NCBI GenBank assembly: GCA_021740905.1
Contig: JAIOYV010000019.1
Coordinates: 1-64,000 of the forward strand
Length of the DNA stretch: 64,000 bases
Direction: 5' to 3'
Source of the DNA: Bacteroidales bacterium
GTDB taxonomy: Bacteria > Bacteroidota > Bacteroidia > Bacteroidales > M50B96
Part shown: piece after piece, positions 139 through 29,366 of the stretch
Position numbering within the stretch: the stretch's first letter is position 1
Layout of the letters: each line of letters begins with the position of its first letter
Notes under the pieces: model-generated
What the model was told of the DNA's origin: nothing
Seen by the model: only the letters and a program-made list of their open reading frames with translations
Database searches by the model: none
Translations under genes and position numbers: made by a program

Positions 139-282
139 AATCTTTCACTTGTGATTTATATCATTTCGCGATAAAACCGCCAAAAGGTGAAAAAACTGGT
201 AAAGAATGTGGTAAACCTTTCAATCAATAAAGGTAGTCCCGGTAAATATTTACTTCCCTAAAACTAAGATTTTTATTAAAAA

Positions 283-348
283 TGTGTGAATGATGTAAAT
301 AATTTATAAAGTAATACAACGAATCACATTAATAAATAGCCAACCTTG
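283..348 (+). promoter_or_regulatory. Shared two-part box and promoter, upstream of hybrid kinase
   Basis: First half TGTGTGAATGATGTAA (283-298) matches the window consensus exactly. The second half at the expected +29 offset (312-322, TAATACAACGA) is weak, and a -7-like CAACCTTG follows at 341-348. The kinase ATG is 20 bases downstream. If the kinase's own AraC domain reads this box, the gene is autoregulated; that is inference. Confidence 0.6.
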
Positions 349-367: not shown

Positions 368-3300
368 ATGAAATTATACATAAAGTACATGGTGAGCAAC
401 CGCTGTAAGATAGTGGTAAAAGAGGAGTTGAAAAAACTTCACTTGCATTTTATCGTTGTCGATTTAGGTGAAGTGGAAATCATGGAAGACATCTCGGAGG
501 AACAGCGGAAGGAACTGAAAATGGATCTACATGCCTCAGGGCTTGAATTAATTGATGACGCCAGGGCTGTTTTGATCGACAGAATAAAAACTGCAATCAT
601 TGAATTGGTCCACCATACAGATGAACTGATCAAAATAAACTTCTCCGATTTTTTAAGCCATAAGCTTAATTACGATTATACCTATCTGGCCAATTTATTC
701 TCAGAAGTACAGGGAACCACCATCGAACAATTCATCATTCTTCATAAAGTTGAGCGGATAAAAGAATTGATCATTTATGATGAGTTGAATATTTCGGAAA
801 TCTCATGGAAGATGAATTACAGCAGTGTTTCCCATTTATCCCATCAATTTAAAAAAGTGACGGGGCTGTCACCTTCCCACTTTAAACAGCTGAAGGATAA
901 ACGACGGATACCCATTGAAGAAATTGGGAACCAGAAAGATGTCCAACCAAATACAAAAGGAATAAATCAAAATAAATCAACTTCTGCAGAGCCTTTTCCT
1001 TTAGATGACCAGGAAACATTAAAACCGGAAAATTCCAATTATGCCCGGAGTTTGATTGAAGCCAGTTTAGATCCATTCGTTACCATCAATTTCCAGGGAA
1101 AGATTACTGACGTAAACAAGGCCATGGTACAAGTGACTGGGATACCTCGTGAAAAGCTTATAAATACTGATTTCTCGAAATATTTCACTGAGCCACAAAA
1201 AGCACAGGCAAGCTATCTTCGGGTATTTGAAAAAGGTTTTGTAGCTGATTGTCCGCTCACCATAAAGCATAAAAACGGAAATTTGACCGATGTATCCTAT
1301 AATGCATCGGTTTATAAAGATGAGAAAGGGAATGTACTCGGCGTTTTTGCGGCAGCCCGCGATGTGACCGATAAAATATTGACATTAGAATTAAGAAAAA
1401 CCAATAAAGAACTTGCTTTTCAACTCGAAGAAAAAGAAAAGCGGGCAGCTGAATTTGTAATTGCTGACAGAGAACTTGCATTTCAGACACGAGAGAAAGA
1501 AAAACGGGAAATTGCAAATATTGAACTTGAGGCAATCAGCAATTCTTTAAAGTTAGCTGGCCAATATTCACTTAGTTTGATTGAAGCCAGTCTTGATCCT
1601 TTAGTTACCATAAGTACCGAAGGTAAGATTACCGACATGAATGAGGCCACTGTAAATATTACCGGTTTTACCCGGGAAAAATTAACAGGGACCAATTTTT
1701 TGGATTATTTTACCGAACCACAAAAAGCACGCGAAGTGTATCTGGAAGTATTCGCCAAAGGATCAGTGGCTGATTCACCGCTAACGATTCGTCATAAAGA
1801 TGGCAAATTGACGGATGTACTATTCAACGGATCGGTTTATAAAGACGACAGGGGAAATGTACAGGGAGTGGTGATTGTTGCCCGCGATGTTACGGATCAA
1901 AAAAGAATTGCAACAGAACTCACCGAGGCAATCATATTTGCTGAGATGGCAACCCTGATTGCTGAAGAAGCTAAAAGTAAAGCCGAAAAAGCCACGCTGT
2001 TTGCGGAAGATGCCATGAAAGCAAAACAACAATTTTTGTCGAATATGAGCCACGAGATCCGTACGCCCATGAATGCGATTATCGGATTTACGAAAGTGAT
2101 ATTAAAAACCGATTTGTCGGCCAAACAAAAGGAATATTTGAAGGCTATAAAATTGAGCGGCGATGCGCTGATTGTCTTGATCAACGACATCCTCGACCTG
2201 GCAAAAGTGGATGCCGGAAAAATGACCTTTGAGCAAATCCCCTTTAAAATGGATTTGTCCCTGTCGGCCATGCTTCATCTATTCGAAACAAAAATTCAGG
2301 AAAAAAATTTAAAACTGATAAAAGAGTACGACCCTAAGATTCCGGAAATCCTGGTTGGCGACCCGGTGCGTTTGCACCAGATAATTTTAAACCTGGTGAG
2401 CAATGCCGTAAAGTTTACATCGAAAGGAAAAATCACAGTGAGTGTCCAATTGCTGGATGAAGATGAGGAAAGTGTACGCATTGAATTTGCGGTAAAGGAC
2501 ACCGGGATTGGGATAGTCGAAGCTAAAATAGAAAGTATTTTCGATAATTTTCAACAGGCATCCAGCAATACGTCCCGGTTATATGGGGGCACCGGGCTGG
2601 GCCTTGCCATTGTGAAACAATTGGTAGAACGCCAGGGGGGAACCATTCGGGTTACAAGCAAAGTGAACGAAGGCTCAACGATTAGCTTTATATTAAATTT
2701 CCGGAAAGTAAGCGACGAAACTGTTTTAGAAATTGAGCCGGTTGAATTTGATACAGAAAATGCCGACCTAAAAGTATTGGTTGTCGAAGATATTGTACTC
2801 AATCAGTTGTTGATGAGAACCCTACTGGATGATTTTGGCTTTGAATGTGATATTGCCGACAATGGAAAAATAGCCATCGAGAAGATGCAATCCAACTTAT
2901 ACGATATTGTTTTAATGGATTTGCAAATGCCCGAAATGAATGGATTTGAAGCCACCGAATATATTCGAAACATAATGCATTCTACCATTCCCATTATTGC
3001 CTTAACAGCCGATGTCACTACTGTCGATTTGGCGAAATGCAAGGAGATTGGGATGAATGATTACATCGCCAAACCCATCGATGAAAAATTATTGTACAGT
3101 AAAATGGTAGGATTAGTGAAGAAAACTTCCATTAATTCAGAACCTGAAAAGGAAGTAATTGAGGATAGTCTAAAGAATAAATGTACAAATTTGGACTATT
3201 TAAATCGCCGGACTAAATCCAATCCCGTCCTGATGATGGAAATGATTTCACTCTTTTTGACACAAACCCCGGCTTTGGTTTCTACGATGAAACAAGGCTT

Positions 3301-3565
3301 AAAGGATAAAGATTGGCAACAGTTGTACTCAGCCGTCCATAAATTGATACCTTCATTTTCAATCATGGGTATTGGTGGCGAATTCGAAAGTATGGCCCTC
3401 AAAGTCCAGGATTTTGCCCGTATCGAGAACCAACCCGGGCAAGCAAATATGCAGGAAAATTTAGATGAATTACCAGCCTTTATCGAACAGCTCGAAAACA
3501 TGTGTCTGCAGGCTTGTGAAGAATTAGAATTAGAGTTTAATGCTATTAAAAATACCACCCCATGA
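368..3565 (+). CDS. Hybrid histidine kinase with N-terminal HMA-like and AraC DNA-binding domains
   Basis: This 1,065-residue protein joins a transcription factor to a phosphorelay. Residues 1-60 resemble the small heavy-metal-associated-like domain of many Bacteroidota AraC regulators, but the usual CxxC is SNRC (Ser10, Cys13). Residues about 100-180 form an AraC-type double helix-turn-helix (ISEISWKMNYSSVSHLSHQF). Two PAS domains follow (about 225-338 and 402-515) joined by a charged coiled coil, then HisKA with phospho-acceptor His562 (SHEIRTP), HATPase with N, G1 and G2 boxes (NLVSNAVKF, DTGIGI, GGTGLGL), a receiver with Asp851 and a C-terminal Hpt-like domain (AVHKL). No membrane segment is seen, so it is probably a cytoplasmic sensor. 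The stop codon overlaps the next gene by 4 bp. The combination could let phosphorylation control DNA binding directly; that is inference. Confidence 0.93.
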   Translation: MKLYIKYMVSNRCKIVVKEELKKLHLHFIVVDLGEVEIMEDISEEQRKELKMDLHASGLELIDDARAVLIDRIKTAIIELVHHTDELIKINFSDFLSHKLNYDYTYLANLFSEVQGTTIEQFIILHKVERIKELIIYDELNISEISWKMNYSSVSHLSHQFKKVTGLSPSHFKQLKDKRRIPIEEIGNQKDVQPNTKGINQNKSTSAEPFPLDDQETLKPENSNYARSLIEASLDPFVTINFQGKITDVNKAMVQVTGIPREKLINTDFSKYFTEPQKAQASYLRVFEKGFVADCPLTIKHKNGNLTDVSYNASVYKDEKGNVLGVFAAARDVTDKILTLELRKTNKELAFQLEEKEKRAAEFVIADRELAFQTREKEKREIANIELEAISNSLKLAGQYSLSLIEASLDPLVTISTEGKITDMNEATVNITGFTREKLTGTNFLDYFTEPQKAREVYLEVFAKGSVADSPLTIRHKDGKLTDVLFNGSVYKDDRGNVQGVVIVARDVTDQKRIATELTEAIIFAEMATLIAEEAKSKAEKATLFAEDAMKAKQQFLSNMSHEIRTPMNAIIGFTKVILKTDLSAKQKEYLKAIKLSGDALIVLINDILDLAKVDAGKMTFEQIPFKMDLSLSAMLHLFETKIQEKNLKLIKEYDPKIPEILVGDPVRLHQIILNLVSNAVKFTSKGKITVSVQLLDEDEESVRIEFAVKDTGIGIVEAKIESIFDNFQQASSNTSRLYGGTGLGLAIVKQLVERQGGTIRVTSKVNEGSTISFILNFRKVSDETVLEIEPVEFDTENADLKVLVVEDIVLNQLLMRTLLDDFGFECDIADNGKIAIEKMQSNLYDIVLMDLQMPEMNGFEATEYIRNIMHSTIPIIALTADVTTVDLAKCKEIGMNDYIAKPIDEKLLYSKMVGLVKKTSINSEPEKEVIEDSLKNKCTNLDYLNRRTKSNPVLMMEMISLFLTQTPALVSTMKQGLKDKDWQQLYSAVHKLIPSFSIMGIGGEFESMALKVQDFARIENQPGQANMQENLDELPAFIEQLENMCLQACEELELEFNAIKNTTP

Positions 3566-3996
3566 ACAACAATAATAAAATCATAATATACCTTGTCGAT
3601 GACGATGCTTTGTTTTTAAAATCATTGGAAATTGATTTTCTCCGCGAAACCAAATTTACCATCGAAACTTTTGCCACAGGCGAAATGTGCTTAGCCAATC
3701 TATCAAAAAAACCTGATGTAATCATTTTGGATTATTACCTCGACAGCATTGATAAAAAGGCGATGAACGGAATAGAAACATTGGATAAAATTATAGCTAA
3801 GGATCCGGATATCTCAGTGGTAATGCTGTCCGCACAGGATAAAATTGATGTCGCAATACAGTGCATGCACCACCAGGCTTTTGATTATGTGGTAAAAAGT
3901 GAAACCGCCTTTTTGCGTTTAAAGGAGATCATTTCCAAAATTTTAAAGTACAAAAAAATGGAAAAAGAGCTGAACTGGTATATGGATCGAATGTAA
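3562..3996 (+). CDS. Single-domain response regulator
   Basis: A 144-residue stand-alone receiver. It has the acidic pocket near the start (YLVDDDALF), the phospho-acceptor Asp in VIILDYYLD, a conserved Ser in VVMLSAQDK and the Lys in VVKSE, all standard CheY-like residues. No output domain is present; the last 25 residues are a basic/charged helix. The start codon overlaps the kinase stop by 4 bp, so the two are co-translated and the Hpt domain of the kinase is its most likely phosphate donor. Confidence 0.9.
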   Translation: MNNNNKIIIYLVDDDALFLKSLEIDFLRETKFTIETFATGEMCLANLSKKPDVIILDYYLDSIDKKAMNGIETLDKIIAKDPDISVVMLSAQDKIDVAIQCMHHQAFDYVVKSETAFLRLKEIISKILKYKKMEKELNWYMDRM

Positions 3997-4310: not shown

Positions 4311-4376
4311 CCTGTGAATCATATAACAAATAGCTAAAATTGTGTAAAGATTTTCATTTTAAAGTGTGGACTTTTG
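4311..4376 (+). promoter_or_regulatory. Shared two-part box and promoter, small membrane protein genes
   Basis: First half is a diverged CCTGTGAATCATATAA (4311-4326); second half TTGTGTAAAGA begins exactly 29 bases after it (4340-4350); -7-like GACTTTTG at 4369-4376. The geometry matches the other boxes although the first half is weak. It precedes the membrane protein gene at 4421. Confidence 0.6.
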
Positions 4377-4420: not shown

Positions 4421-4642
4421 ATGAACTTAAAAACAATAGGAATCATACTCGCATCAATTGGGATAATCATGATAATCTACACGGGCTTTAATTTTGTAAC
4501 AAAAGAAAAAGTGGTGGACTTAGGCCCAATTGAAATCAATTCAGAAACGAATCATCCTATTCAGTGGTCACCTTATGTTGGTGTGGCATTGCTTATAGGA
4601 GGCGTTGTCGTTTTTGCATTCGGTAAGAAATCGAGCAAATAG
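4421..4642 (+). CDS. Small two-helix membrane protein
   Basis: A 73-residue protein starting at the ATG of MNLKTIGII; a longer reading from 4340 would begin inside the promoter box and is less likely. Two hydrophobic helices (about residues 5-24 and 45-64) flank a polar loop with several acidic residues, and the end is basic (GKKSSK). It resembles small DUF3185-like or general stress membrane proteins of Bacteroidota, but I do not recognise a named family. It is followed 53 bp later by another small membrane protein, so the pair is probably one operon under the box at 4311. Confidence 0.7.
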   Translation: MNLKTIGIILASIGIIMIIYTGFNFVTKEKVVDLGPIEINSETNHPIQWSPYVGVALLIGGVVVFAFGKKSSK

Positions 4643-5112: not shown

Positions 5113-5179
5113 TATGTGAATGATGCAACTCATAGCCGGAATTGTGTAATACTTTTTGAAGAATGTCCCCTCACATTTG
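5113..5179 (+). promoter_or_regulatory. Shared two-part box and promoter, CsbD-like gene 1
   Basis: TATGTGAATGATGCAA at 5113-5128, TTGTGTAATAC at 5142-5152 (29-base register kept), CACATTTG at 5172-5179 after a 19-base gap. The first downstream gene is the CsbD-like gene at 5215. Confidence 0.75.
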
Positions 5180-5214: not shown

Positions 5215-5400
5215 ATGAACACCACAGAAGCAAAAGAAAACTGGAAAGAGAAAAAGAGAAAACTCAAACTAAAATTTGCAGCTTTAACCGACAACGATCT
5301 GTTGTTTCAAGAAGGCAGAAATGAGGAGATGTTGGCAAAACTTCAAATCCTCCTTGGCAAAACAAAAGAAGAGCTACATAAAATATTAGCATCACTTTAA
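5215..5400 (+). CDS. CsbD-like stress protein, copy 1
   Basis: A 61-residue, highly charged, probably helical protein. The layout NWKEKKRKLKLKF, then LTDNDLLFQEGRNEEML, then LQ..LGKTKEELHKIL matches the CsbD-like family (general stress proteins; biochemical role poorly known). Two paralogues lie at 9653 and 15541 with the same core, and each has its own copy of the shared promoter box. It appears to be transcribed alone: the next gene has its own box. Confidence 0.85.
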   Translation: MNTTEAKENWKEKKRKLKLKFAALTDNDLLFQEGRNEEMLAKLQILLGKTKEELHKILASL

Positions 5401-5604: not shown

Positions 5605-5671
5605 TGTGTGAATCGTAATACTTATTCTTATAATTATGTAACACATTCATTTTAAAAGGTACCGACCTTTG
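5605..5671 (+). promoter_or_regulatory. Shared two-part box and promoter, ice-binding protein gene
   Basis: TGTGTGAAT is conserved but the rest of the first half is altered (5605-5620). The second half TTATGTAACAC (5634-5644) is again exactly 29 bases from the first, and GACCTTTG at 5664-5671 follows after 19 bases. Start codon of the ice-binding protein at 5713. Confidence 0.7.
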
Positions 5672-5712: not shown

Positions 5713-8700
5713 ATGAGAAAACAATTTCTTAATTTAATATCAGTAGTTACCCTACTCTTATTCTCAACTCCAAATTTTGCGCAAGCTCCTCCCTTAGGGA
5801 CTGCTGCGGATTTCGTGCTCTTTACATCAGTGGGAGCAATGACCAATATTGGTACCTACCAGTATCTTACCCATCTTACAGGTAATGTGGGAACAAACAG
5901 TGGTTCCAGCACCAATTTTGGAAACGTAAACGGCGTTATGCACGATGGCGATGGTGCAAGCAACACATGCGCAGGCGATTTACTACTTGCCTATAATTTT
6001 CTTGCTGCGGCAATACCGGATTCAACCCTTACAAATCCTGTGCTTGGAAACGATTCCACCATTAAGGCAGGGACATACCTCATGCCAGGTGCTGTATCAC
6101 TTAACTTAGGCCTTACCTTGAATGCAGAAGGCGATCCCAATGCGGTATTTATTTTTAAGATGCCTGCAGCACCTCCTGTGTTTGCTTTTAGCACAAGTGT
6201 TGATGCAAAAGTTCATTTAATTAATGGGGCAAAAGCATGCAATGTGTTTTGGTTTGTTACCGGAGCTGTAAATATGGCAGCCGGAACAACCATGAGAGGA
6301 ACCATTATTTCGGGTGGCGCCATTTCGATGAGTGCCGGTGATACGCTCGAAGGAAGAGCGCTTACTATCAACGGGGCTGTTATTGTTAACAACGGAGATA
6401 TTGGATTGGTGGCTTATACGCCTATTGGATGTGGAAGCCCTGTCCTTAACGGACCAGCCGCCCCAACCTTTGTCGAATCGGCAGATTATGCCGTGTTTTC
6501 TTCCATCGGGTCTGTCTCCGACGATGGTACCTCACACATTACTGGAAGTGTAGGCTGTAATAGTTCTGCACCTACCGGTTACAATCCTTTATTTGTATCA
6601 GGTAGTATTGATGGTATGAATCCCGCTACGGCAGGAGCTGCAGCCGATTTACTACTTGTCTATAATTCGTTGAATACAACCACACCTGATATTGAGTTAT
6701 TGTTCCCTCCTCAATTTGGACACAACCTGGTTCTTACGCCTCATACGTATGTAATGAATTCAGCCGTAACTTTAACCGATACACTTTACCTCGATGCTTT
6801 GGGTAATGCTAATGCTGTTTTTATTATTAAAACGTATGGTGCCTTCGAAGCACTCCCGTTTTCAAATGTAATTTTGGCTAACGGAACGCAGGCTAAAAAT
6901 GTATTTTGGATGGTCAACGGTGCAGTAAGCATTGGCAACTATGCAATTTTCAACGGGACGATTGTAGCCAACAACGGTGCTATTGACATACTCACAGGTG
7001 CTACGTTTAATGGTAGGGCACTGACAACCAATGGCGCTGTTTCAACCACTGCCATGACTACTGTCCTTCCTACTCTTATTCCCACATCTCCAGACATTAC
7101 CACAGAACCAATTAATCAAATTGCATGTGATGGTGGCTCTGTAAGCTTTTCTGTGGTTGCCACAGGAGATGGTCTTACTTACCAATGGAGAAAGGGAACA
7201 ACAGCTTTAACTAATGGTGGGAATATTTCAGGTGCAACCACTTCAACATTAACCATAAATCCAGTAAGCACCACCGATGCTGCAACAAACTATAATGTTG
7301 TTGTGTCAGAATCAATTGCGCCGGGCGCTACTTCAACTAATGTTTCTTTAACAGTCAACACAGTGCCAAACATTACGACCGAACCTACCAATCAAATTGT
7401 AAGTGCCGGGAGTTCAGCAAGTTTTTCGGTTGTTGCCACAGGCTCAGGCCTTACTTATCAATGGAGAAAAGGAACAGTCGATTTGGTTGATGCAGGAAAT
7501 ATATCAGGGTCAACTACCGATATGCTTGCCGTAAATCCTGTAAGTATCGCCGATGTTGCATCAGACTATAATGTGGTTATCGGTGGGGATTGCTCACCCA
7601 ATGACAATTCAGTGAATGTTTCTCTATCTATCAGCGGTACTCCTACTTCTCCAGCTATTACCACAGAACCAATTAATCAAATTGCATGTGATGGTGGCTC
7701 TGTAAGCTTTTCTGTGGTTGCCACAGGAGATGGTCTTACATACCAATGGAGAAAAGGATCGACAGATCTGACTGACGGAGTAAATACATCCGGTTCAACT
7801 ACCGATATGCTAACCCTGAATTCTGTAAGCATCGCTGATGCTGCAATAGACTATAATGTGGTTGTTTCTGGAACATATTTACCAGTTGCTACTTCAATGA
7901 ATGCTTCTTTAACAGTTAATACTGTCGAATTAGACCTTAGTTTCGTTCCGGTTGATCCATCGCTTAGCGCTTATACAACATTAGTCACTGGTGGAACTTC
8001 ACCGTATCAATATCTATGGTCCAATGGTTCAACTACAGTTCCAGACCTTCTCACAGGAGTATATTCAGTTACTATTACTGATGCAAATGGCTGTGCTGCT
8101 ACATATCTGGATATAACCAGGCAGGATATTAACCTTCCTTTGGGTTGGAGTTTGTTTTCGACCTATATGGTTCCATTACATTTGGACATTGAGGATGTCC
8201 TTTCAGAAGTAGTACAAGATGTTGTTATTGTTAAAAAAGCCAATGGTAATGTATATTGGCCGACATTTTCGTTCAACGATATTGGCAACATGGAAATTGG
8301 CAGCGGGTATCAGATAAAAATGGCAAGCTCCAAAGTCCTTTCTGTTTTTGGAACTGCTGTAGTACCTGAATTGACCCCGATAAACATGCCTGTAGACTAT
8401 AGTTTAATTGCGTATCTAAGACAATCTCCTGCCTCAGTTGAAGTAATGATGAGTGATATTGTGGCCAGCATACTAATTTTGAAAAATGGAAGCGGACAGG
8501 TCTATTGGCCATATTTTAATATAAATCAGATTGGCAACATGATACCAGGTGAGGGTTATAAGATCAAACTGACATCGCCAGAAGTCCTTATTTATCCAGC
8601 CAATACCACTAATTTGAAATTAGAGTCGGTTGAGAATGTCAATCCAGTTTACTTTGGGAAAGCCAAAAATACTGGTACTAACATGACCCTTGGAATCCCT

Positions 8701-9270
8701 CTCTCGTCATGGAACAATACTCCAACCATAAACGATGAGATTGGTATTTTTACTGAGGATGGAATTCTTGTCGGAAGTACAAGTTTCCAAGGGAAAGATA
8801 TTGCCATTGCGGTCTGGGGAAATGATGTCATTGATCAGGAAAAAGATGGCTTGCTCAATCTTGAGAAATATTCGATCGTTTTATGGGACCATCTCAGTGG
8901 CGTTGAAATGCCGATTGAAGTCACCACCTGGATCGAAGGCGATGAGTTCTTCAGCAACAACAAAATTAGTATTATCGATAAGCTGGTTGTGGCTCCTGAG
9001 AAAGAAATTGAACATCCAGTTTTGTTCAGAATTTATCCAAATCCTATTGATGAATTTTCGAACGTCGAATTTTCACTTTCTTACGACTCGCCTGTAAATT
9101 TTAAAATCTATAATTCCATTGGTGTGCAGATTAAGGATTTAATGAATACCGATTACACAAAAGGAAATCATCAGTACGTGATAGATATGACAGGTTTTGC
9201 ACCCGGGGTCTATTATTTTCAATTGATCACCCGTTTGACCCAACTCACGAAAAAGATGGTTGTATTATAA
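5713..9270 (+). CDS. Secreted ice-binding-like protein: two DUF3494 domains, Ig-like repeats, T9SS tail
   Basis: An 1,185-residue exported protein with a signal peptide ending near NFAQ (residue 24). Residues about 30-240 and 257-445 are two copies of the DUF3494 ice-binding fold (motifs GTYLMPGAV, DPNAVFIFK, NVFWFVTGAV, GTIISGG, GRALT). Three near-identical Ig-like repeats follow from about 460, 551 and 647 (ITTEPINQI, LTYQWRKGT), then a SprB-like repeat (about 740-805), a tandem YWP/GYK module shared with the giant phosphohydrolase at 37181 (about 810-1095), and a T9SS tail (FRIYPNPI to KMVVL). DUF3494 proteins bind ice or keep cells near it; adhesion is an alternative. A strong terminator follows at 9383. 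Confidence 0.93.
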   Translation: MRKQFLNLISVVTLLLFSTPNFAQAPPLGTAADFVLFTSVGAMTNIGTYQYLTHLTGNVGTNSGSSTNFGNVNGVMHDGDGASNTCAGDLLLAYNFLAAAIPDSTLTNPVLGNDSTIKAGTYLMPGAVSLNLGLTLNAEGDPNAVFIFKMPAAPPVFAFSTSVDAKVHLINGAKACNVFWFVTGAVNMAAGTTMRGTIISGGAISMSAGDTLEGRALTINGAVIVNNGDIGLVAYTPIGCGSPVLNGPAAPTFVESADYAVFSSIGSVSDDGTSHITGSVGCNSSAPTGYNPLFVSGSIDGMNPATAGAAADLLLVYNSLNTTTPDIELLFPPQFGHNLVLTPHTYVMNSAVTLTDTLYLDALGNANAVFIIKTYGAFEALPFSNVILANGTQAKNVFWMVNGAVSIGNYAIFNGTIVANNGAIDILTGATFNGRALTTNGAVSTTAMTTVLPTLIPTSPDITTEPINQIACDGGSVSFSVVATGDGLTYQWRKGTTALTNGGNISGATTSTLTINPVSTTDAATNYNVVVSESIAPGATSTNVSLTVNTVPNITTEPTNQIVSAGSSASFSVVATGSGLTYQWRKGTVDLVDAGNISGSTTDMLAVNPVSIADVASDYNVVIGGDCSPNDNSVNVSLSISGTPTSPAITTEPINQIACDGGSVSFSVVATGDGLTYQWRKGSTDLTDGVNTSGSTTDMLTLNSVSIADAAIDYNVVVSGTYLPVATSMNASLTVNTVELDLSFVPVDPSLSAYTTLVTGGTSPYQYLWSNGSTTVPDLLTGVYSVTITDANGCAATYLDITRQDINLPLGWSLFSTYMVPLHLDIEDVLSEVVQDVVIVKKANGNVYWPTFSFNDIGNMEIGSGYQIKMASSKVLSVFGTAVVPELTPINMPVDYSLIAYLRQSPASVEVMMSDIVASILILKNGSGQVYWPYFNINQIGNMIPGEGYKIKLTSPEVLIYPANTTNLKLESVENVNPVYFGKAKNTGTNMTLGIPLSSWNNTPTINDEIGIFTEDGILVGSTSFQGKDIAIAVWGNDVIDQEKDGLLNLEKYSIVLWDHLSGVEMPIEVTTWIEGDEFFSNNKISIIDKLVVAPEKEIEHPVLFRIYPNPIDEFSNVEFSLSYDSPVNFKIYNSIGVQIKDLMNTDYTKGNHQYVIDMTGFAPGVYYFQLITRLTQLTKKMVVL

Positions 9271-9530: not shown

Positions 9531-9597
9531 TGTGTGAATGATGTAACTCTTTCCCTGAATTGTGTAACGATTTACAGCAATAAGCGCAGTAATTTAG
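9531..9597 (+). promoter_or_regulatory. Shared two-part box and promoter, CsbD-like gene 2
   Basis: Perfect TGTGTGAATGATGTAA (9531-9546); TTGTGTAACGA (9560-9570) in the standard 29-base register; -7-like TAATTTAG at 9590-9597 after 19 bases. It drives the CsbD-like gene at 9653 and possibly the barrel protein gene after it. Confidence 0.8.
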
Positions 9598-9652: not shown

Positions 9653-9838
9653 ATGAACACAACTCAAATAGAAAGAAACTGGATTGAGATGCAAACCAAA
9701 CTCAAACTAAAATTTACAACATTAACCGACGACGACCTAAAGCTTATAGAAGGCAAGAAGGGGGAAATGATTGGAAGACTTCAAATAAAACTTGGCAAAA
9801 CTAAAGAGGAAATGTATAATATTATTGCAGTGCTTTAA
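9653..9838 (+). CDS. CsbD-like stress protein, copy 2
   Basis: A 61-residue paralogue of the protein at 5215: it keeps MNTT..E.NW, the LKLKF block, LTDDDL, EGK and the LGKTKEEMYNII end. Small, charged and helical, with no signal peptide, as expected for CsbD-like proteins. It has its own promoter box and is followed after 85 bp by an outer-membrane protein gene that has no box of its own, so the two may form an operon. Confidence 0.85.
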   Translation: MNTTQIERNWIEMQTKLKLKFTTLTDDDLKLIEGKKGEMIGRLQIKLGKTKEEMYNIIAVL

Positions 9839-13509: not shown

Positions 13510-13576
13510 TGTGTGAATGATGTAATTCTTTTCATAAGTTGTGTAACACGACTCCGGGTACATGCGATTAACTTTG
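13510..13576 (+). promoter_or_regulatory. Shared two-part box and promoter, universal stress protein gene
   Basis: Both halves are perfect: TGTGTGAATGATGTAA (13510-13525) and TTGTGTAACAC (13539-13549). TAACTTTG at 13569-13576 follows after 19 bases. This is the reference example of the box. Confidence 0.9.
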
Positions 13577-13612: not shown

Positions 13613-14056
13613 ATGAAGAAAGTACTGATTACCCTCGATTACGACCCTACCTCACAGAGAGTTGCTGAAAGGGGTTTTAAAATGGCCAAAGCAATGCACG
13701 CTGAAATTATATTGCTGCACGTACTCTCAAACCCCGTGTTGTATTATCCCGAACACGCTCTGATGGTCCCACTACAAGTGCATAATATGGAGGAATTGAA
13801 AGCAGTAGCTCAACAATTTCTGGATAAAACAAAACTGGACTTTGGGGATAAAACCATTCGAACACTTATCGTAGAGGGAGATACGGCCGAACAAATATTG
13901 GAATCTGCAAAAAAAACAAAAGCAGATATTATTGTTATAGGCACCCATAGCCAGAAATGGTTGGAAAATATACTCATGGGCAGCGTTGCCGAAAAAGTGC
14001 TAAAAGACACGACTTTACCACTTTTCATCATCCCAACCAAAAAAACAGACGAATAG
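13613..14056 (+). CDS. Universal stress protein (UspA family)
   Basis: A 147-residue single-domain Usp. It has the Rossmann-like opening ILVTLDYD-type strand (VLITLDYDPTSQRVAERGF), the IILLHVLS strand, and the ATP-binding signature near the end (IIVIGTHSQKWLENILMGSVAEKVL, read as Gx2Gx9G-S with the first glycine position slightly altered). Usp proteins bind ATP and aid survival under starvation or oxidative stress. It is directly under a perfect copy of the shared box and is followed 9 bp later by a small gene, so the two form an operon. Confidence 0.9.
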   Translation: MKKVLITLDYDPTSQRVAERGFKMAKAMHAEIILLHVLSNPVLYYPEHALMVPLQVHNMEELKAVAQQFLDKTKLDFGDKTIRTLIVEGDTAEQILESAKKTKADIIVIGTHSQKWLENILMGSVAEKVLKDTTLPLFIIPTKKTDE

Positions 14057-15453: not shown

Positions 15454-15520
15454 TGTGTGAATGATGTAATATTATTACAAAGTTGTGTAACACTTAAAGG
15501 ATTCGGCTCATTTACCTTTG
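15454..15520 (+). promoter_or_regulatory. Shared two-part box and promoter, CsbD-like gene 3 / mla operon
   Basis: Perfect TGTGTGAATGATGTAA (15454-15469) and TTGTGTAACAC (15483-15493), then a perfect TACCTTTG -7 box (15513-15520) after 19 bases. It precedes the CsbD-like gene and, 280 bp further, the mlaE gene. Confidence 0.9.
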
Positions 15521-17472: not shown

Positions 17473-18180
17473 ATGGATACGCACACACCGAAGTTTAAGG
17501 TACGATTGGGGATATTTGTGGCAGGCGGGCTGGCCATTTTTATATTTGCCATATTCATTATCGGGAAACAAAAGAACCTGTTTAACCCTGTGCTTAAACT
17601 GAATACTACTTTTTACAATGTGAGCGGGTTACAGGTGGGCAATAACATCCGTTTTTCCGGGATTAATGTAGGCACGGTCGACAACATACATATCTTAAAT
17701 GATTCAACAGTCATAGTCGAAATGTTGATCAGAAGGGAAGTACAGCAGTTTATTAAAACGGACTGTGTGGTTGCAATTGGTTCGGAGGGCCTTATTGGCG
17801 ACCGGCTGTTAATCATTACCCAGGGCGGCACCAATACACCTTTGGCAAAGGAAAACCAACGGCTTTTGTCGGTTGAGCCAGTTGAAACAGATGCGATTAT
17901 GGCCAGCCTACAGGTAACCGCAGACAATGCTGCAATTATTTCCGATCAGTTGGCCGAAATAATGGTTAAATTGAATAACGGGCAAGGAACTCTCGGGCGA
18001 TTGATCTCGGATTCGACTGTGGCGGATAATCTCGACGAAACCATCCTGAATCTTAAAAAAAGCAGCAAAGGACTAAATGAAAATATGAATGCGGCCAAGG
18101 AGAATTTCCTTTTAAGAGGATATTTCAGAAGGAAAGCTGAACAAGCCGAAGAAAAGAAAGAGGATGCTGGGGAAAAATAG
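17473..18180 (+). CDS. mlaD: MlaD-family MCE protein
   Basis: A 235-residue protein with one N-terminal anchor helix (about residues 15-32) and a single MCE domain. The domain opens LNTTFYNVSGLQVGNNIRFSGINVGTVDNI and includes VAIGSEGLIGDRLLIIT. A helical tail follows, ending in a charged segment (RRKAEQAEEKKEDAG). It is the substrate-binding ring component of the Mla complex and lies 17 bp after mlaF. No separate mlaB or mlaC gene is seen here; several Bacteroidota loci lack them. Confidence 0.92.
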   Translation: MDTHTPKFKVRLGIFVAGGLAIFIFAIFIIGKQKNLFNPVLKLNTTFYNVSGLQVGNNIRFSGINVGTVDNIHILNDSTVIVEMLIRREVQQFIKTDCVVAIGSEGLIGDRLLIITQGGTNTPLAKENQRLLSVEPVETDAIMASLQVTADNAAIISDQLAEIMVKLNNGQGTLGRLISDSTVADNLDETILNLKKSSKGLNENMNAAKENFLLRGYFRRKAEQAEEKKEDAGEK

Positions 18181-20109: not shown

Positions 20110-20176
20110 TGTGTGAATTATGTTACTTATATTAAAATTTGTGTAACACTTCTGGAGATAGCAGGATTTACTTTTG
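20110..20176 (+). promoter_or_regulatory. Shared two-part box and promoter, second ice-binding gene
   Basis: TGTGTGAATTATGTTA (20110-20125), perfect TTGTGTAACAC (20139-20149) and TACTTTTG (20169-20176) after 19 bases. Start codon at 20217. Confidence 0.85.
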
Positions 20177-20216: not shown

Positions 20217-22964
20217 ATGAAAACGAAAGGAAAAAGACTATGGATGACCACAATCACAAGTTTATTATTGATGGCCGTAGTTATAGGAGGATGCAAAAAG
20301 GATAATTATGTGGAAGTTGATGGTGTATGCCCGGTTGTCATATCTACAGACCCCATAAATGCTGCTTTAGGAGTACCTCTTGACCAGATTATTTCGGCAA
20401 CATTTAATGAAAAGATGAACCCTGCTACTATTAACCAGGGATCATTTACTTTAATTGGAACCACGAAAAATGTATTGCAGGGAATTTCAGGCAGCTTGAC
20501 GTACAATGAAGCGAATGCTACGATGAGCTTTGTGCCAGATACATTTCTTACTGCTAACACGACCTATTCCGGTAGGGTTGAATCATCTATTAAAGATTTA
20601 ATGGGCAATGCCTTACAAACTGATCATGTATGGACATTTACCACAGGTACAACCTTGTCACCCATGGTAATTTCAACTGACCCTGTAAATAATGCTACGG
20701 GTGTATTCCTTAATAAAGTGGTTTTCGCATCCTTCAACATACCAATGGATCCGTTGACAATTAACGATACAACTTTTACCTTAAAACAAGGAACAACCTT
20801 AATCGCAGGGGCAGTTTCATACTACGGTATGGCAGCCTCTTTTACAACTGCTTTGGAATTAACACCCAACACAATTTATACAGGTTCAATCACAACCGAT
20901 GTTAAGGATATTTCCGGCAATCCACTGGAAGTGACCTATGTCTGGACATTTACAACTGGAAATGTTGTGGCTCCAAAAGTGATTTCGACCGAACCTGCAT
21001 ACAATGAAACGGGAGTTGCTCTAAATAAAATTGTTACTGCCACTTTTAGCGTACCTATGGATCCCCTGACAATCAACGGGACAAACTTCAAAGTTAAACA
21101 AGGGACAATATCTGTTGCAGGAGCAATTAATTACGCAGGTACTACTGCTTTCTTTATTCCTTCCAGTGCTCTTACATCCAACACCATGTATACGTGTGCT
21201 ATTTCGACAGGAGCTAAGAACATAGCTGGAACGCCTCTTGTGAATGATTACTTATGGACATTCACAACAGGATCCATTTTGGCTCCCAGTGTGATTTCTA
21301 CTGATCCAGTAAACAATGAAACAAGTGTAGCCATAACTAAAATAGTTACCGCAACTTTTAACGAGCCAATGGATCCATTGTCCGTTACTCCGACAACCTT
21401 TCTATTAAAACAAGGGACAAATTTGGTTGAAGGATTTATTTCTTATACGAATTCTAATGCAACCTTTGTACCTACTTTTGCTCTTACTCCTAGTGCCATT
21501 TATACTTGCACTATTACTACCGGAGTTAAAAATGTTGCTGGTATTCCACTGGCAAATAACTATATATGGTCATTTACAACACAAAGTCTCTCTGATCCTC
21601 TGGTGATATATACCGATCCCTTAAACAATGCTCAGAATGTACCCCTTAATCAGGTAGTTACTGCAAGCTTTAATATGCCGATGGCTTTGTTGACTATTAA
21701 TTCCAGCACCTTTACCTTAAGTGATGGATCCTCATTAATAACCGGAATCGTATCGTACACAGGAACAACTGCATCATTCACACCCTCCGGTGATCTTGAC
21801 CCTGGTACTACTTATACTGGTACAATTACTACAGGTGCTGAGAGTACTACAAGTATGCCATTGGTTAATAATTATGAATGGACATTTACCACTATTTCAA
21901 ATGTGGCTCCCCTGGTGATTCTTACCGACCCGGCAAACAATGATACAGAAGTACCTCTCAATAAAACAGTAACTACAGACTTTGATATGGAAATGGATGC
22001 ATTAACTATTAGTTCTGCCACCTTTACCTTGTTTGATGGAGTTAATTTGGTAACAGGCACAGTCTCGTATACAGGTACTATGGCATCCTTTATTCCTACT
22101 GGTGGGCTTTTGTCAGGAATCACCTATACTGCAACAATAACAACCGGGGCAACGAACCTTGGAGGAATTCCTTTGGCAGTTGACTATGAGTGGAGCTTTT
22201 CCACCCAGACAATTGTAGTTCCACCAACAGTTGATCTTGGAAGTGCATCTATTTTTGGAGCTTTTGGAGGAAATGCCGGGATCACTAATCAGGGATTAAA
22301 TACCGTAATTAATGGAGCTATTTCGACCACCGCAGCCTCTACTTTAGTAACTGGTTTCCACGATGGACTAACCAGTGATGTGTACACTGAAACACCTCTC
22401 AATGTTGGGCTTGTTACGGATGGAATATTTACAGCCCCACCATTTCCTGGAACTGCTACCTCAGAAGCTATTGCAACCCAGGGCTTGATTGATGCCACCG
22501 CTGCTTACCTTAGTATTTCTCCCGCTTCAATGCCAGGAGGTATAGATCCAGGCAGTGGAGAATTAGGAGGATTAACTCTATATCCTGGTGTCTATAAATC
22601 TGCAAGTGGTACTTTTAATATTTCGAACGGGCCTCTTACATTAGATGCCCAGGGTGATCCGAACGCAACCTGGGTATTCCAAACTGCCGCTGGACTTACT
22701 GTGGGCATTGCCGGACCAACAGGTGCGCGTAGTGTTCTTCTGGTAAACGGAGGCTTGCCTAAGAATGTATTTTGGTATGTGGGCAGTTCAGCAACTATTA
22801 ACGGAGCCGGCGGAGGCGTTGTTGTGGGAACTATTATAGCTAACTCAGGAGTTACCTTCTCTACACCGGGAAATACTGTTCAAACCGTACTTAATGGTAG
22901 AGCGATTTCACTGATTGCTTCAGTTACCGTGGTAAACACAACCATTAATGTACCAGCCCCATAA
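20217..22964 (+). CDS. Lipoprotein with six Big_5 Ig-like repeats and a C-terminal DUF3494 ice-binding domain
   Basis: A 915-residue lipoprotein: signal peptide with lipobox VVIGGC, Cys26. Six repeats of about 104 residues (roughly 38 to 663) each carry DP.N....V.LN..V.A.F, MDPLTIN..TF and W.FTT, the Big_5 Ig-like domain that often builds stalks. Residues about 673-915 are a DUF3494 ice-binding domain (VDLGSASIFGAFGGNAGITNQG, GTFNISNGPLTLDAQGDPNATWVFQT, NVFWYVGSSATI, GRAIS). It probably displays the ice-binding head at the cell surface. The layout is N-terminal stalk, C-terminal head, the reverse of the protein at 5713. Confidence 0.92.
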   Translation: MKTKGKRLWMTTITSLLLMAVVIGGCKKDNYVEVDGVCPVVISTDPINAALGVPLDQIISATFNEKMNPATINQGSFTLIGTTKNVLQGISGSLTYNEANATMSFVPDTFLTANTTYSGRVESSIKDLMGNALQTDHVWTFTTGTTLSPMVISTDPVNNATGVFLNKVVFASFNIPMDPLTINDTTFTLKQGTTLIAGAVSYYGMAASFTTALELTPNTIYTGSITTDVKDISGNPLEVTYVWTFTTGNVVAPKVISTEPAYNETGVALNKIVTATFSVPMDPLTINGTNFKVKQGTISVAGAINYAGTTAFFIPSSALTSNTMYTCAISTGAKNIAGTPLVNDYLWTFTTGSILAPSVISTDPVNNETSVAITKIVTATFNEPMDPLSVTPTTFLLKQGTNLVEGFISYTNSNATFVPTFALTPSAIYTCTITTGVKNVAGIPLANNYIWSFTTQSLSDPLVIYTDPLNNAQNVPLNQVVTASFNMPMALLTINSSTFTLSDGSSLITGIVSYTGTTASFTPSGDLDPGTTYTGTITTGAESTTSMPLVNNYEWTFTTISNVAPLVILTDPANNDTEVPLNKTVTTDFDMEMDALTISSATFTLFDGVNLVTGTVSYTGTMASFIPTGGLLSGITYTATITTGATNLGGIPLAVDYEWSFSTQTIVVPPTVDLGSASIFGAFGGNAGITNQGLNTVINGAISTTAASTLVTGFHDGLTSDVYTETPLNVGLVTDGIFTAPPFPGTATSEAIATQGLIDATAAYLSISPASMPGGIDPGSGELGGLTLYPGVYKSASGTFNISNGPLTLDAQGDPNATWVFQTAAGLTVGIAGPTGARSVLLVNGGLPKNVFWYVGSSATINGAGGGVVVGTIIANSGVTFSTPGNTVQTVLNGRAISLIASVTVVNTTINVPAP

Positions 22965-25190: not shown

Positions 25191-25466
25191 ATACCACAAT
25201 TCATCAAACCCTCATGTTGAAAGAATAAATACACAAGCAATAACTGACAAGAGCTATCCAACGAAAGTGCAATCGTCTCCAAACATGGATTTGATTGTAA
25301 TTCATTCTATCGCTATTAGCCACCTTTGGAGGCACTACAATTTTAGAGGGAGTTTCATTGAAGGAGATTTACCCCGTGTTGAGTATAAAATCCTGCCCAA
25401 TACTCCAACACCCTATTATTCAAATTCTTAGCCTATTTAACTCTGGCTTATGCTTGTTTGTTTAAA

Positions 25467-25533
25467 TGTGTGAATGATGTAACTAATTGCCCAAGTTGTG
25501 TAACACTTCTTGATTTAAAGGTTGCCAACTTTG
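25467..25533 (+). promoter_or_regulatory. Shared two-part box and promoter, OmpA-like lipoprotein gene
   Basis: Perfect TGTGTGAATGATGTAA (25467-25482) and perfect TTGTGTAACAC (25496-25506), then CAACTTTG (25526-25533) after 19 bases. Start codon at 25560. Confidence 0.88.
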
Positions 25534-25559
25534 CATTAATATTCACTAAAAAAAATAAA

Positions 25560-26399
25560 ATGAAAAAGACACTCCATTTCTTTACCTTCTTATCCTTGAT
25601 CCTTGGTTTGTTGTTTATGTCATGCGGGCCAAGCAAAAAGCTTTTAGTTTCGGAGGGTAAAGTCAATGAGCTGCAAAAAGACAGTGCAAACCTACACGAT
25701 CAATTAATTGAGTGTGAAGGGCTATTGACAACTCGAAATAAAGAAAAAGCTTCTTTGCTGAATGAAAAAGCATCCTTGGAAAGTGAAACAGCATCCTTGC
25801 AGAATAAAAATGCAGCGGTTACGAATGATTTGAATGATCTTTCTGTTAAATCAAAAATGACCATTGCCGAACAGGAAGAAAGGTTAAATAACCTTCAGCA
25901 GATGATTCAATCGCAAAAAGATGTCATGTACAAGCTTAAGAATTCTATAGCCGATGCGCTGTTAAATTACCAAACTGATGAGCTTTCGGTTTATACCAAA
26001 GATGGGAATGTTTATGTTTCGCTCCAGGAGAAATTACTTTTCAAATCGGGCAGCGACGTGGTAAACCCTCAAGGTAAAAAAGCGCTTAAATCTCTTGCCC
26101 AGGTACTCAACAACACGAAAGACATCACCGTCATGGTTGAAGGCCATACCGATAATGTCCCAATCAAAACAAATTTGTTTAAAGATAACTGGGATCTCAG
26201 CACAGCCCGGGCTACTTCCATTTTGCGTGTTTTGACCACCGATAATGCTTTTGACCCAAAGCGTATTACTGCATCGGGTAGGGGCGAATTTCATCCCGTC
26301 AGCACAAATGAAACCGTTGAGGGCCGTTCCGGAAACCGCAGAACGGAAATTATCCTGTCTCCGAACTTAAGCGAGCTTTTTAATTTATTGGATCAGTAA
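25560..26399 (+). CDS. OmpA-family peptidoglycan-associated lipoprotein
   Basis: Start placed at MKKTLHFF because a longer frame from 25458 would overlap the promoter box. The 279-residue lipoprotein has lipobox LLFMSC (Cys22), a long coiled coil of about 35-125 with runs such as KEKASLLNEKASLESETASLQ, and a C-terminal OmpA-like domain (about 150-270) with VMVEGHTDNVPI, NWDLSTARATSILRVL, ASGRGE and NRRTEIILSP. It should anchor the outer membrane to peptidoglycan, with the coiled coil as spacer. Confidence 0.9.
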   Translation: MKKTLHFFTFLSLILGLLFMSCGPSKKLLVSEGKVNELQKDSANLHDQLIECEGLLTTRNKEKASLLNEKASLESETASLQNKNAAVTNDLNDLSVKSKMTIAEQEERLNNLQQMIQSQKDVMYKLKNSIADALLNYQTDELSVYTKDGNVYVSLQEKLLFKSGSDVVNPQGKKALKSLAQVLNNTKDITVMVEGHTDNVPIKTNLFKDNWDLSTARATSILRVLTTDNAFDPKRITASGRGEFHPVSTNETVEGRSGNRRTEIILSPNLSELFNLLDQ

Positions 26400-26561: not shown

Positions 26562-26912
26562 CTAAATTGTGCCTTCCTCATACCCGCTTTTAATCACCGT
26601 CGAAATCATTTTAAAACGCTCGTTCGCATTGACAATACTTGAAGTATGGGCCGGGATAATTATACCCTGCCCCATGGTAAGGCTATTCTTTTTATCATCG
26701 ATGATGATTTCGGCCATCCCATCAATAATTTGGATAAAGGTGTCGAAGGGTGAAATCTTTTCAGCTAAGGCTTCACCTGTATCAATGGCTACGACACTTA
26801 CATTTCCGGTGGTTTTCCGGATGATCGTTTTGCTTACTACCGAATTGGGAACATACTCAATAATTTCAATGAGGATATGCGATTTTGATTTTTCAATTTC
26901 CTTTGAATACAT
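26562..26912 (-). CDS. Cupin-domain protein
   Basis: A 116-residue single cupin. The first half contains ISPFDTFIQIIDGMAEIIIDDKKNSLTMGQGIIIPAHTSSIV, matching the cupin-2 pattern (strand, turn with G.GxxI, PxxxxH), although the usual HxH pair is absent: only His94 or so remains in PAHTS. It may therefore bind a ligand rather than act as a metal-dependent enzyme, or function in stress sensing. It is transcribed from its own copy of the shared box. Confidence 0.85.
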   Translation of the reverse strand: MYSKEIEKSKSHILIEIIEYVPNSVVSKTIIRKTTGNVSVVAIDTGEALAEKISPFDTFIQIIDGMAEIIIDDKKNSLTMGQGIIIPAHTSSIVNANERFKMISTVIKSGYEEGTI

Positions 26913-26942: not shown

Positions 26943-27009
26943 CTAAAGGAACAACACCGATATATCTTTGTGTTACATTTTTGGATTTAAAATTTACATC
27001 ATTCTCACA
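26943..27009 (-). promoter_or_regulatory. Shared two-part box and promoter, cupin gene
   Basis: Read on the minus strand: TGTGAGAATGATGTAA (27009-26994), AAATGTAACAC (26980-26970, the standard 29-base register), and a weak -7-like TTCCTTTA (26951-26944). Start codon at 26912. Confidence 0.65.
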
Positions 27010-27024: not shown

Positions 27025-28506
27025 TTATTTTGTCAACCCGTATACTTTTCTGTAATGATATCCAAAAACGGTATAGGTAATCGCATCTACTATGGCACGC
27101 GGCCGGTTGAAAAGGGTCCATGATATTAGCTTCCAATATTCGCCTCTTCCTTTGTTCGCAATGCCTATAATAAAAGTGGTTTTAAAGAATGACTTAAGCA
27201 GCGACCATTTTATTTTAGTCCTTGGCTGATCTTGTCTGTTATAGTTTAACAACAATTGTCGAAGCCTTTTATAATAAGGCTTGGTCGAATAAATGTTGTG
27301 GATAATTTTTTTGTAGCCTTCCATCAGTTCATCCACATTCATTTTTGGGATGAAGTTCATAGTCAGATCGGTGTTGTTTCCGCTAGCATCTGTTGTCAGC
27401 CTGTTTTCTGCCTCCAATTGTCGGTACAAAGCTGTATTTTTTGGGGCATTCAGCAGACCCACCATAGCTGAAACAATTCCGCTTTTCTGAATAAAATCAA
27501 TTTGACGTTGGAAAATGGATGGGGTGTCGCTGTCGAAACCTACAATAAATCCGCCTGAAACCTGCAATCCGGCCTTTTGTATTTTTTTTACACTTTCCAG
27601 CAGGTCGCGGTTTTTGTTCTGCGTCTTATTACACTCGTGAAGCGATTGTTCATCAGGGGTTTCAATGCCAATGAATGTTGAATTGAACCCTGTTTCCACC
27701 ATCAAGGACATCAGTTCTCCGTCGTCGGCAAGATTGATGGAAGTTTCTGTATTAAAAGTAAATGGGAATTTGTGCTGTTGCATCCAGGTTTTCATATCCG
27801 GGAGCAGATCATTTTTCACCTTGTTTTTATTTCCTATGAAATTATCATCCACCACAAAAACCGACCCTCGCCAGTTGAGTTGATAAAGTGTTTCAAGTTC
27901 TTCGGTTATCTGGTGCGAACTTTTCATCCTTACCTTTTTCCCCAATAAAGAGGTAATTTCACAGAAGTCGCATGAAAAGGGGCATCCACGCGATACCTGC
28001 ACGTTCATAAAGGCATATTTGTCCCTTTCCAACAAGTGGTAATCGGGCACAGGAGTTTCAGATATATCAGCAAATTTATCAGTCTTGTAAATCCTTTGAG
28101 GATGACCGGCACTTAAATCTTTTAAAAATAGTGGCAGGGTAATCTCAGCTTCGTGCAAAATTAAATGATCGACTAGGGGGTAGTCGGAATATTCAGTGGT
28201 GAAGAGGGGACCACCTGCTACTATTATTTTGTTCTGTCTTTTACATTCAGTAATTACTTTGCTCACCGATTCTTTTTGAATCACCATGGCACTTATGAAA
28301 ACGTAATCGGCCCATTGGATATCGCTTGTTTTAAGCGTTGCAACATTCATGTCGACCAACCTTTTTTGCCAGCCTGCCGGGAGCATTGCCGAAACGGTAA
28401 TTAATCCGAGAGGTGGCACAGCCGCTTTTTTCGATATAAATCGTAAAGCGTGTTTAAAACTCCAAAAGGAGTCGGGGCATTGGGGGAATACTAATAATAT
28501 TTTCAT
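27025..28506 (-). CDS. B12-binding-domain radical SAM protein (DUF4070-type)
   Basis: A 493-residue protein. The N-terminal 140 residues form a B12-binding-like fold (ILLVFPQCPDSFWSF, PPLGLITVSAML, DMNV, GGPLFT) but without the DxHxxG cobalamin-ligand motif. The radical SAM core carries Cys175, Cys179 and Cys182 (SRGCPFSCDFCEI) for the 4Fe-4S cluster, followed by FVDDNFIGN-like and GIETPD motifs. The C-terminal part resembles DUF4070, found in enzymes such as HpnJ-like hopanoid and lipid modifiers. Substrate unknown; an envelope-lipid role fits the neighbourhood. Upstream lies a decayed duplicate of its own 5' half. Confidence 0.88.
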   Translation of the reverse strand: MKILLVFPQCPDSFWSFKHALRFISKKAAVPPLGLITVSAMLPAGWQKRLVDMNVATLKTSDIQWADYVFISAMVIQKESVSKVITECKRQNKIIVAGGPLFTTEYSDYPLVDHLILHEAEITLPLFLKDLSAGHPQRIYKTDKFADISETPVPDYHLLERDKYAFMNVQVSRGCPFSCDFCEITSLLGKKVRMKSSHQITEELETLYQLNWRGSVFVVDDNFIGNKNKVKNDLLPDMKTWMQQHKFPFTFNTETSINLADDGELMSLMVETGFNSTFIGIETPDEQSLHECNKTQNKNRDLLESVKKIQKAGLQVSGGFIVGFDSDTPSIFQRQIDFIQKSGIVSAMVGLLNAPKNTALYRQLEAENRLTTDASGNNTDLTMNFIPKMNVDELMEGYKKIIHNIYSTKPYYKRLRQLLLNYNRQDQPRTKIKWSLLKSFFKTTFIIGIANKGRGEYWKLISWTLFNRPRAIVDAITYTVFGYHYRKVYGLTK

Positions 28507-28797: not shown

Positions 28798-28864
28798 CAA
28801 AATTCGTGAAATCGTGTCAAATTTGTGTTACACTATTCTGATTATTATTTACATCATTCACACA
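28798..28864 (-). promoter_or_regulatory. Shared two-part box and promoter upstream of the radical SAM locus
   Basis: Minus strand: perfect TGTGTGAATGATGTAA (28864-28849), TAGTGTAACAC (28835-28825), then GAATTTTG (28805-28798) after 19 bases. The nearest intact start codon is about 290 bases away, across the decayed duplicate, which suggests the promoter once served the lost copy. Confidence 0.8.
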
Positions 28865-28865
28865 T

Positions 28866-29366
28866 TTACAATTTAAATGTGAGTCCAATTTTGCCACCTG
28901 AAAAGGCATTCCCACCGCCAAATTCGAGATTTATGCCTGCTCTATTCGAGAAGTAATATCTTCCCCCAATCTGGCCCCCTAAATCCAAACCCGAACTATG
29001 GTCGCCATGATAATCATCGGGTGATGACCATGTATAGAAACCTACATTTAGACCTGCATAAAAATCCCAATTTTGAGGTATTTTAAGCACACTGTTAAAA
29101 TGGTAATTCCCATTTCCAGAAAAGCCCATGATGGTATGATTGTACTTGTGGTTGTCCCAATTTTCACGGTATCCCCGATAGGAGAACTCGGCCCCAAGCG
29201 TGATATCCTTGTGGACACTATAATCGAACCCAATATAAAAGGGTATACCCCAATCGGAAAACCCGACCCCAAGATTAAGTTGTGCCTTCCCCAACGGTAA
29301 AGGACTTTGACTAAAAGATAACCCTGAGATAAAAAGGATCGCGACTGCTAAAACGATTGTCTTCAT
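28866..29366 (-). CDS. Small outer-membrane beta-barrel protein
   Basis: Start taken at MKTIVLAVAIL; 17 extra upstream residues would extend into the promoter region. The 166-residue product has a signal peptide (ending near SFSQ) and alternating strands with aromatic girdles (LNLGVGFSDWGIPFYIGFDYSV, ITLGAEFSYRGYRENWDN, DFYAGLNVGFYTWSS, GLDLGGQIGGRYYFSNRAGINLEF), ending in GLTFKL with a hydrophobic terminal residue. Likely an eight-stranded OmpX/OmpA-type barrel; the specific role is unknown. Confidence 0.85.
   Translation of the reverse strand: MKTIVLAVAILFISGLSFSQSPLPLGKAQLNLGVGFSDWGIPFYIGFDYSVHKDITLGAEFSYRGYRENWDNHKYNHTIMGFSGNGNYHFNSVLKIPQNWDFYAGLNVGFYTWSSPDDYHGDHSSGLDLGGQIGGRYYFSNRAGINLEFGGGNAFSGGKIGLTFKL

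Follow-up and report, generated by a model that had tools for sequence, protein, structure and literature searches.

Which circuit would place an AraC-type DNA-binding domain in front of a hybrid histidine kinase, and which genes does it serve? The question is raised by a locus of a Bacteroidales bacterium (GTDB lineage M50B96), located on contig JAIOYV010000019.1 of assembly GCA_021740905.1, whose positions 1 to 64,000 constitute the window analysed here. A single open frame with an ATG start at 368-3565 on the plus strand encodes 1065 residues and unites a small regulator and a hybrid kinase in one chain. Comparison with relatives shows that two genes, kept as separate neighbours in other genomes, are joined here, an arrangement rarely encountered. 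We consider it probable that the AraC part of the fused protein binds a conserved box, thereby activating its own operon and a regulon of stress and envelope genes, and that the kinase sets its activity.

The Pfam matches of the 1065-residue protein follow the order HTH_18, two PAS domains, HisKA, HATPase_c, Response_reg and Hpt. The AraC-type DNA-binding domain with its two helix-turn-helix motifs is assigned to residues 96-174 (653-889; HTH_18, E 7.8e-15) and is present in all 46 members of the alignment underlying the structural model; the predicted fold agrees, as the helix-turn-helix part aligns with AraT, AdpA and MarA at Z values of 14.7, 13.2 and 13.1. Further along the plus strand lie PAS 1 (1046-1372, its start taken from a Pfam stretch at residues 227-269 and its end judged by eye), PAS 2 (residues 411-510; 1598-1897), HisKA (residues 552-617; 2021-2218), HATPase_c (residues 664-778; 2357-2701), the receiver domain (residues 803-911; 2774-3100) and Hpt (residues 958-1044; 3239-3499), the last being borderline with 23.6 bits against a Pfam cut-off of 24.6. 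Judged from the motif positions, the phospho-acceptor histidine of HisKA, the receiver aspartate and the Hpt histidine are all in place as H562, D851 and H991. A reading made from the sequence only had described this domain order, with the AraC domain at the N-terminus and no membrane segment, and the profiles bear it out. The highest hydropathy over 19 residues is 1.41, whereas a transporter encoded elsewhere in the window reaches 2.93, and the kinase is therefore devoid of a membrane segment. Membrane-bound versions may exist among its relatives, as five of 80 relative kinases (L039, L063, L066, L076 and L103) are strongly hydrophobic over one stretch. The start of a receiver-only protein of 144 residues (3562-3996, plus strand; open frame, Pfam and neighbour counts) overlaps the stop codon of the kinase.

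Among relatives from a species-level collection and from samples of the order and the phylum, the equivalent of residues 1-187 is a separate gene product of about 190 residues. The species-level collection comprises the best 80 of 589 relatives with the window protein as query, and it thus favours the regulator type with the SxxC motif (S-type) to which that protein belongs. We reduced 128 regulator matches to 117 near-complete ones, beginning no later than residue 3 and extending at least to residue 173; the loci of the collection and the genome samples overlap (117 rows, 111 different), so that some of the adjacent regulators represent the same species twice. Seventy-seven of the 117 are encoded directly before a relative of the kinase, two are fused to it, 35 have no adjacent kinase and three are too near a contig end. 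Flavobacterium species of the species-level collection are among the genomes with the split pair. In 68 of the 77 adjacent pairs the kinase frame starts at most 60 nucleotides (nt) past the regulator stop, and a receiver-only gene is next in 62 of the 75 relative kinases for which 500 nt or more of downstream sequence was available. The Hymenobacter and Rufibacter kinases L085, L091, L092, L094, L096, L098 and L104 have neither an adjacent regulator nor a receiver-only neighbour. On the regulator tree the label "kinase-adjacent" changes seven times, which implies that adjacency was gained or lost on several occasions.

A search for the same domain order in other genomes, suggested by the sequence-only reading, returned one further fusion, L064 from a metagenome-assembled genome of the Prolixibacteraceae; in the other relatives examined regulator and kinase are not fused. 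Among the matches listed for the order and phylum samples, no fusion-length frame was found besides those of the window and of G029. The latter (L010) is listed as an open frame of 1071 residues, yet its DNA contains a TGA (L010 2059-2061) between regulator and kinase, which lie in the same frame, and it was therefore counted as split. In frames of more than 1000 residues returned by the genome search, the matches cover the AraC part only (E 1e-8 to 1e-6).

The domain preceding the AraC part had been described as HMA-like. Pfam detected no HMA match in the 1065-residue protein and only one, at E 0.14, among the 46 alignment members, and the assignment of an HMA domain by profile was accordingly dropped. 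An AlphaFold model of residues 1-187, built from the alignment of these 46 proteins (pLDDT 89), nevertheless contains at residues 1-64 (368-559, plus strand) a fold that aligns with GolB, Atx1 and HAH1 at Z values of 7.3-8.2; ACT domains score equally. "HMA-like fold" is a fair label for this predicted structure, resting on the fold and not on a profile. In HMA domains the CxxC motif binds metal, and residues 1-64 carry SNRC (residues 10-13) in its place. The contrast to the CIRC motif of a stand-alone paralogue in the same window is confirmed, whereas the proposed loss of the first cysteine in the window kinase had to be abandoned: SxxC occurs in 77 of 77 near-complete kinase-adjacent regulators and in both fusions, so that the serine marks a kinase-linked subfamily. 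The 35 regulators without adjacent kinase comprise 21 with CxxC (C-type), 12 with SxxC and two others, and the three near contig ends are all CxxC. Exceptions occur among incomplete kinase-adjacent rows outside the 77, namely CTRS in L069 (a frame of 73 residues) and APRC in L072, while L090 and L107 lack the part that bears the motif. In the regulator tree, 25 C-type rows fall on one side of a branch with a support of 100/91.

Upstream of the kinase start, the box TGTGAATGATGTAA at 285-298, regarded as a shared element in the sequence-only reading, was confirmed. The kinase promoter box (280-320, plus strand; pattern count, upstream search and matrix) consists of half-site 1 at 285-298, a weak half-site 2 located 21 bp further on and a weak -7-like element. 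With up to two mismatches the window holds 16 sites versus 3.76 expected, and none of 100 shuffles reaches as many. The pattern TGTGAATNATGTAA with at most one mismatch is found in the 400 nt upstream of 45 of the 77 adjacent regulators, mostly 80-100 nt ahead of the start, versus 0 of 385 shuffles; a further 7 of the 77 have it at two mismatches (6 of 385 shuffles). Both fusions are boxed, with 0 and 1 mismatch at -83 and -87, respectively. S-type regulators without adjacent kinase carry the box at up to one mismatch in 3 of 11 cases, and C-type regulators, even at up to two, in none of 22. Alignment of 71 sites, 11 from the window and 60 from other genomes, revealed a second half-site 21 bp on which shares TGTAAC, an A at +58 in 93% and TTT at +61, +62 and +63 in 100, 100 and 89% of the sites; the columns at +58 and +61 to +63 lay outside the search pattern. 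They resemble TAnnTTTG, which we take to be the -7 element of the Bacteroidota primary sigma factor. The box is real, its two half-sites being spaced by 21 bp and its distance to a -7-like element being constant.

The 60 sites from other genomes served to train a matrix, which detected 12 sites in the window, the first at 285 and the last at 29455. Downstream of each lies a gene on its strand, and the reversed window yielded no sites. The -7 score exceeds the 99% level of random places in nine of the 12. In the organism's own genome beyond the window, the matrix was applied only to half-site hits, of which 30 of 32 were scored and one outside the window (C140) exceeded 20. Apart from the kinase promoter, the boxes, given by half-site 1 and found by pattern and matrix unless stated otherwise, precede on the plus strand a 73-residue protein without family (box 4313-4326, gene 4421-4642), a CsbD-like protein (5115-5128, gene 5215-5400; also by the CsbD gene search), an Ice_binding protein (5607-5620, gene 5713-9270; matrix only), a second CsbD-like protein followed by an outer-membrane protein and YtxH (9533-9546, gene 9653-9838; also by the CsbD gene search), a universal stress protein (13512-13525, gene 13613-14056), a 67-residue protein without family followed by genes including that of an MlaD-family protein at 17473-18180 (box 15456-15469), a Big_5/Ice_binding protein (20112-20125, gene 20217-22964) and an OmpA-family protein (25469-25482, a strong box; ATG at 25560, open frame listed as 25458-26399). 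On the minus strand follow the weakest box, before a small protein (26994-27007, gene 26562-26912), a box upstream of a radical-SAM protein whose ATG is 356 nt away (28849-28862, gene 27025-28506), and one before an outer-membrane-like protein (29455-29468, gene 28866-29417). The last overlaps the stop codon of the CIRC regulator gene (29464-30024, minus strand), the paralogue mentioned above, whose product is 60% identical to residues 1-186 of the fused protein. According to the coordinates, a box also abuts or overlaps the 3' end of a regulator gene in G211, G349, G173, G127 and G224. The two CsbD-like proteins of the window reach 31 and 33 bits, below the Pfam cut-off of 40. All 12 boxes lie in a stretch of 29 kb (285-30024) that is bounded by the fused kinase and the CIRC paralogue and looks like a stress-gene island.

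The box is not confined to this contig. With both half-sites it was found in 74 of 393 genomes at 281 sites, versus 2 with the pattern read backwards (a control counted by eye). For 60 boxes fetched from other genomes a first gene could be assigned in 57 cases, the choice of the gene past each box following a rule of thumb. Pfam matched 53 families among these genes, and in the 25 listed the counts are OmpA 6, Ice_binding 4, MlaE 4, CsbD 4, DUF6600 3 and KaiC 2; single cases include a ferritin-like protein, superoxide dismutase, an ATP synthase subunit, a thiamine-pyrophosphate enzyme and DUF5661. The boxed set is rich in stress and envelope genes and is not made solely of them. CsbD genes were also sought independently of the box and then examined for it with a matrix deprived of six training loci (four driving CsbD, L180 with a CsbD gene further on, and L198, whose removal was unnecessary). 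Among 24 matches in 20 genomes, 22 are boxed on their own strand, mostly about 120 nt upstream, compared with 6 of 2000 random pieces; of the 16 matches over the Pfam cut-off, 14 are boxed. Conversely, a CsbD match occurs in 17 of 20 genomes that have four or more boxes (in 14 of them over the cut-off), as opposed to 0 of 19 genomes lacking boxes, both groups having been hand-picked by box count. All genome counts and p-values ignore relatedness, which makes the p-values too small. As this distribution shows, the box is part of a regulon present in many genomes of the order.

We infer that the AraC part of the fused protein is a binder of this box and that it activates rather than represses. 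A box is carried by 58 of the 73 genomes whose best regulator match reaches E<=1e-60 and by 16 of the 320 others, and in G109, whose 11 boxes make it a seeming exception, an S-type regulator begins under a box at the end of a contig. Several findings weigh against this assignment. No box with up to two mismatches lies within 400 nt of 25 of the 77 adjacent regulators; the kinase's own box is among the weaker ones (matrix score 36.9 versus a training median of 53, -7 score -1.2); exact TAnnTTTG is present at +57 in only 19 of the 71 sites; many boxed genes in other genomes are not recognisable as stress genes; and 13 of the 262 genomes without a regulator match at E<=1e-40 carry the box, G109 being the one of them that its contig end accounts for. 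Furthermore, among the 73 genomes with a close regulator, boxes occur in 15 of the 20 in which only the C-type was seen and in 43 of the 53 of S-type, the type being taken from the fetched loci, mostly the best match and some 1.5 kb of flanking sequence in either direction. C-type-only genomes are thus boxed about as often as S-type genomes (Fisher p 0.54); its presence is therefore no distinguishing mark of the kinase-linked protein, and the notion that it marks only this subtype was dropped. These data would also suit a scenario in which the stand-alone CIRC regulator is the main box binder and the fused protein competes or modulates at the shared site, a quite conceivable if somewhat doubtful arrangement. 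The CIRC protein and its clade have recognition helices nearly identical to the fusion's, and its gene occupies the opposite end of the box cluster; against it stand the complete lack of boxes before C-type regulators, as opposed to their frequency before kinase-adjacent S-type genes, and the many boxed S-type genomes, which may hold a C-type regulator elsewhere. The CIRC paralogue probably reads the same box as the fusion. The simplest view would be that both paralogues read one box and that the S-type, driven by the kinase, also controls its own promoter, while the C-type would respond to another input, perhaps a metal or thiol signal. A box ahead of a gene is no proof that the gene product binds it, and its fixed distance to the -7-like element would equally be expected if an unrelated activator or an alternative sigma factor used the box and the regulator genes were mere members of the regulon. 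We judge this unlikely, since a direct repeat of 21 bp reaching about 60 bp upstream of the -7-like element suits, in our understanding, an AraC-type dimer more than a sigma element, and since the box strongly co-occurs with this regulator family.

Two further objections concern the fused protein itself. The single frame might be a sequencing or assembly artefact, arising from two genes whose intervening stop was lost in the contig; only two fusions were found, and the in-frame TGA of G029 illustrates that a small error could mimic one. However, the linker at residues 188-226 (929-1045, plus strand), located where relatives have the regulator stop and the kinase start, comprises 39 codons without a stop or an in-frame ATG, GTG or TTG, the first start being codon 229 just inside PAS 1. 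The fusion of L064 comes from a second metagenome-assembled genome and has a different linker. Codon 205 of L064 is an in-frame ATG at the position of the start of split kinases, from which the kinase alone could still be produced. The regulator halves of the two fusions are sisters with a support of 92/77. In the kinase tree the two fusions stand apart with weak support, and the AU test does not reject a common origin of their kinase halves (p-AU 0.85), the constrained tree even outscoring the quick free search, which had missed it. An artefact therefore appears very improbable. Still harder to credit is a rearranged hybrid two-component system (HTCS) of the Bacteroides polysaccharide type. 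In HTCS the AraC domain lies C-terminal, whereas HTH_18 (residues 96-174) precedes the receiver (803-911) in the window protein, the periplasmic sensor gives way to PAS domains, and the homologues of the N-terminal part form a gene family of their own. According to PMC11253607, HTCS likewise combine kinase, receiver and DNA-binding domain in one chain, a combination that Pfam also finds here, and their dimeric kinase keeps two DNA-binding domains close together, while the receiver restrains the DNA-binding domain until it is phosphorylated. The same paper describes the HTCS kinases as transmembrane, in contrast to the window protein with its low hydropathy. Because the AraC part adjoins the PAS sensor, unlike in HTCS, the coupling would have to differ.

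Based on these considerations we favour the fused AraC part as a reader of the box and propose the following scenario. The protein would combine a small regulator of the SxxC subfamily, consisting of HMA-like fold and AraC domain, with a soluble PAS hybrid kinase. Direct repeats spaced by some 21 bp are bound by proteins of the AraC type, and the predicted site shows this geometry; the companion domain, HMA-like here, and the fusion of the whole to a kinase distinguish the window protein from AraT, AdpA and MarA. The kinase dimer might place its two AraC domains on the two half-sites, 21 bp or two helical turns apart, beside the -7-like element. The second half-site would then sit where the -33 element is expected, presumably so given the spacing to the -7-like element that we assume, as for an AraC-type activator overlapping the promoter. 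The bound AraC parts might activate their own operon together with a set of genes that includes those for CsbD, universal stress protein, Ice_binding and OmpA. Sensing of an internal signal may fall to the PAS domains, and a phosphorelay involving H562, D851, H991 and the separate receiver protein may determine how active the AraC part is, in a single chain for the window protein and between two proteins elsewhere. A conserved box in the promoter and an N-terminal AraC domain in the product make autoregulation of the fused kinase via its predicted site likely.

Two other features of the window lie outside this circuit. A protein of 210 residues with PIDERPIDARP repeats is encoded at 33079-33711, which we assume to be perhaps a REP-associated transposase, flanked by genes that we would name type I restriction-modification-like. 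At 45120-49856 the translation reveals a protein of 1578 residues with many near-identical repeats containing EEICEGDIFDFNG.

Another known system that invites comparison is the general stress regulon of Bacillus subtilis. SigB is a sigma factor controlled by partner switching, whereas the window system looks like an AraC-type activator under a phosphorelay. Families related to csbD, dps and ytxH are found under the box, and these three genes stand on the published SigB gene list, as given in PMC7824861. With a chance that we place just short of even, the HMA-like AraC regulators and the PAS hybrid kinase might constitute the master switch of the general stress response in Bacteroidota, a counterpart of SigB with an AraC-type activator under phosphorelay in the place of a sigma factor; the S-type would have emerged from the C-type when a site for metal or thiol was lost and the kinase was recruited as input, and the lineage studied here would have merged switch and sensor into one protein. 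No paper on this regulator, the kinase pair or the box was found among those listed from the literature searched, which omits most subscription journals. The existence of the fusion is a hint that regulator and kinase also cooperate in the many genomes where their genes are separate, and together with the shared control site it points to a little-studied stress circuit of the Bacteroidota. As operator, geometry and the marker family CsbD are defined, the regulon is testable, and the question of a general stress response in Bacteroidota becomes open to a simple promoter assay.

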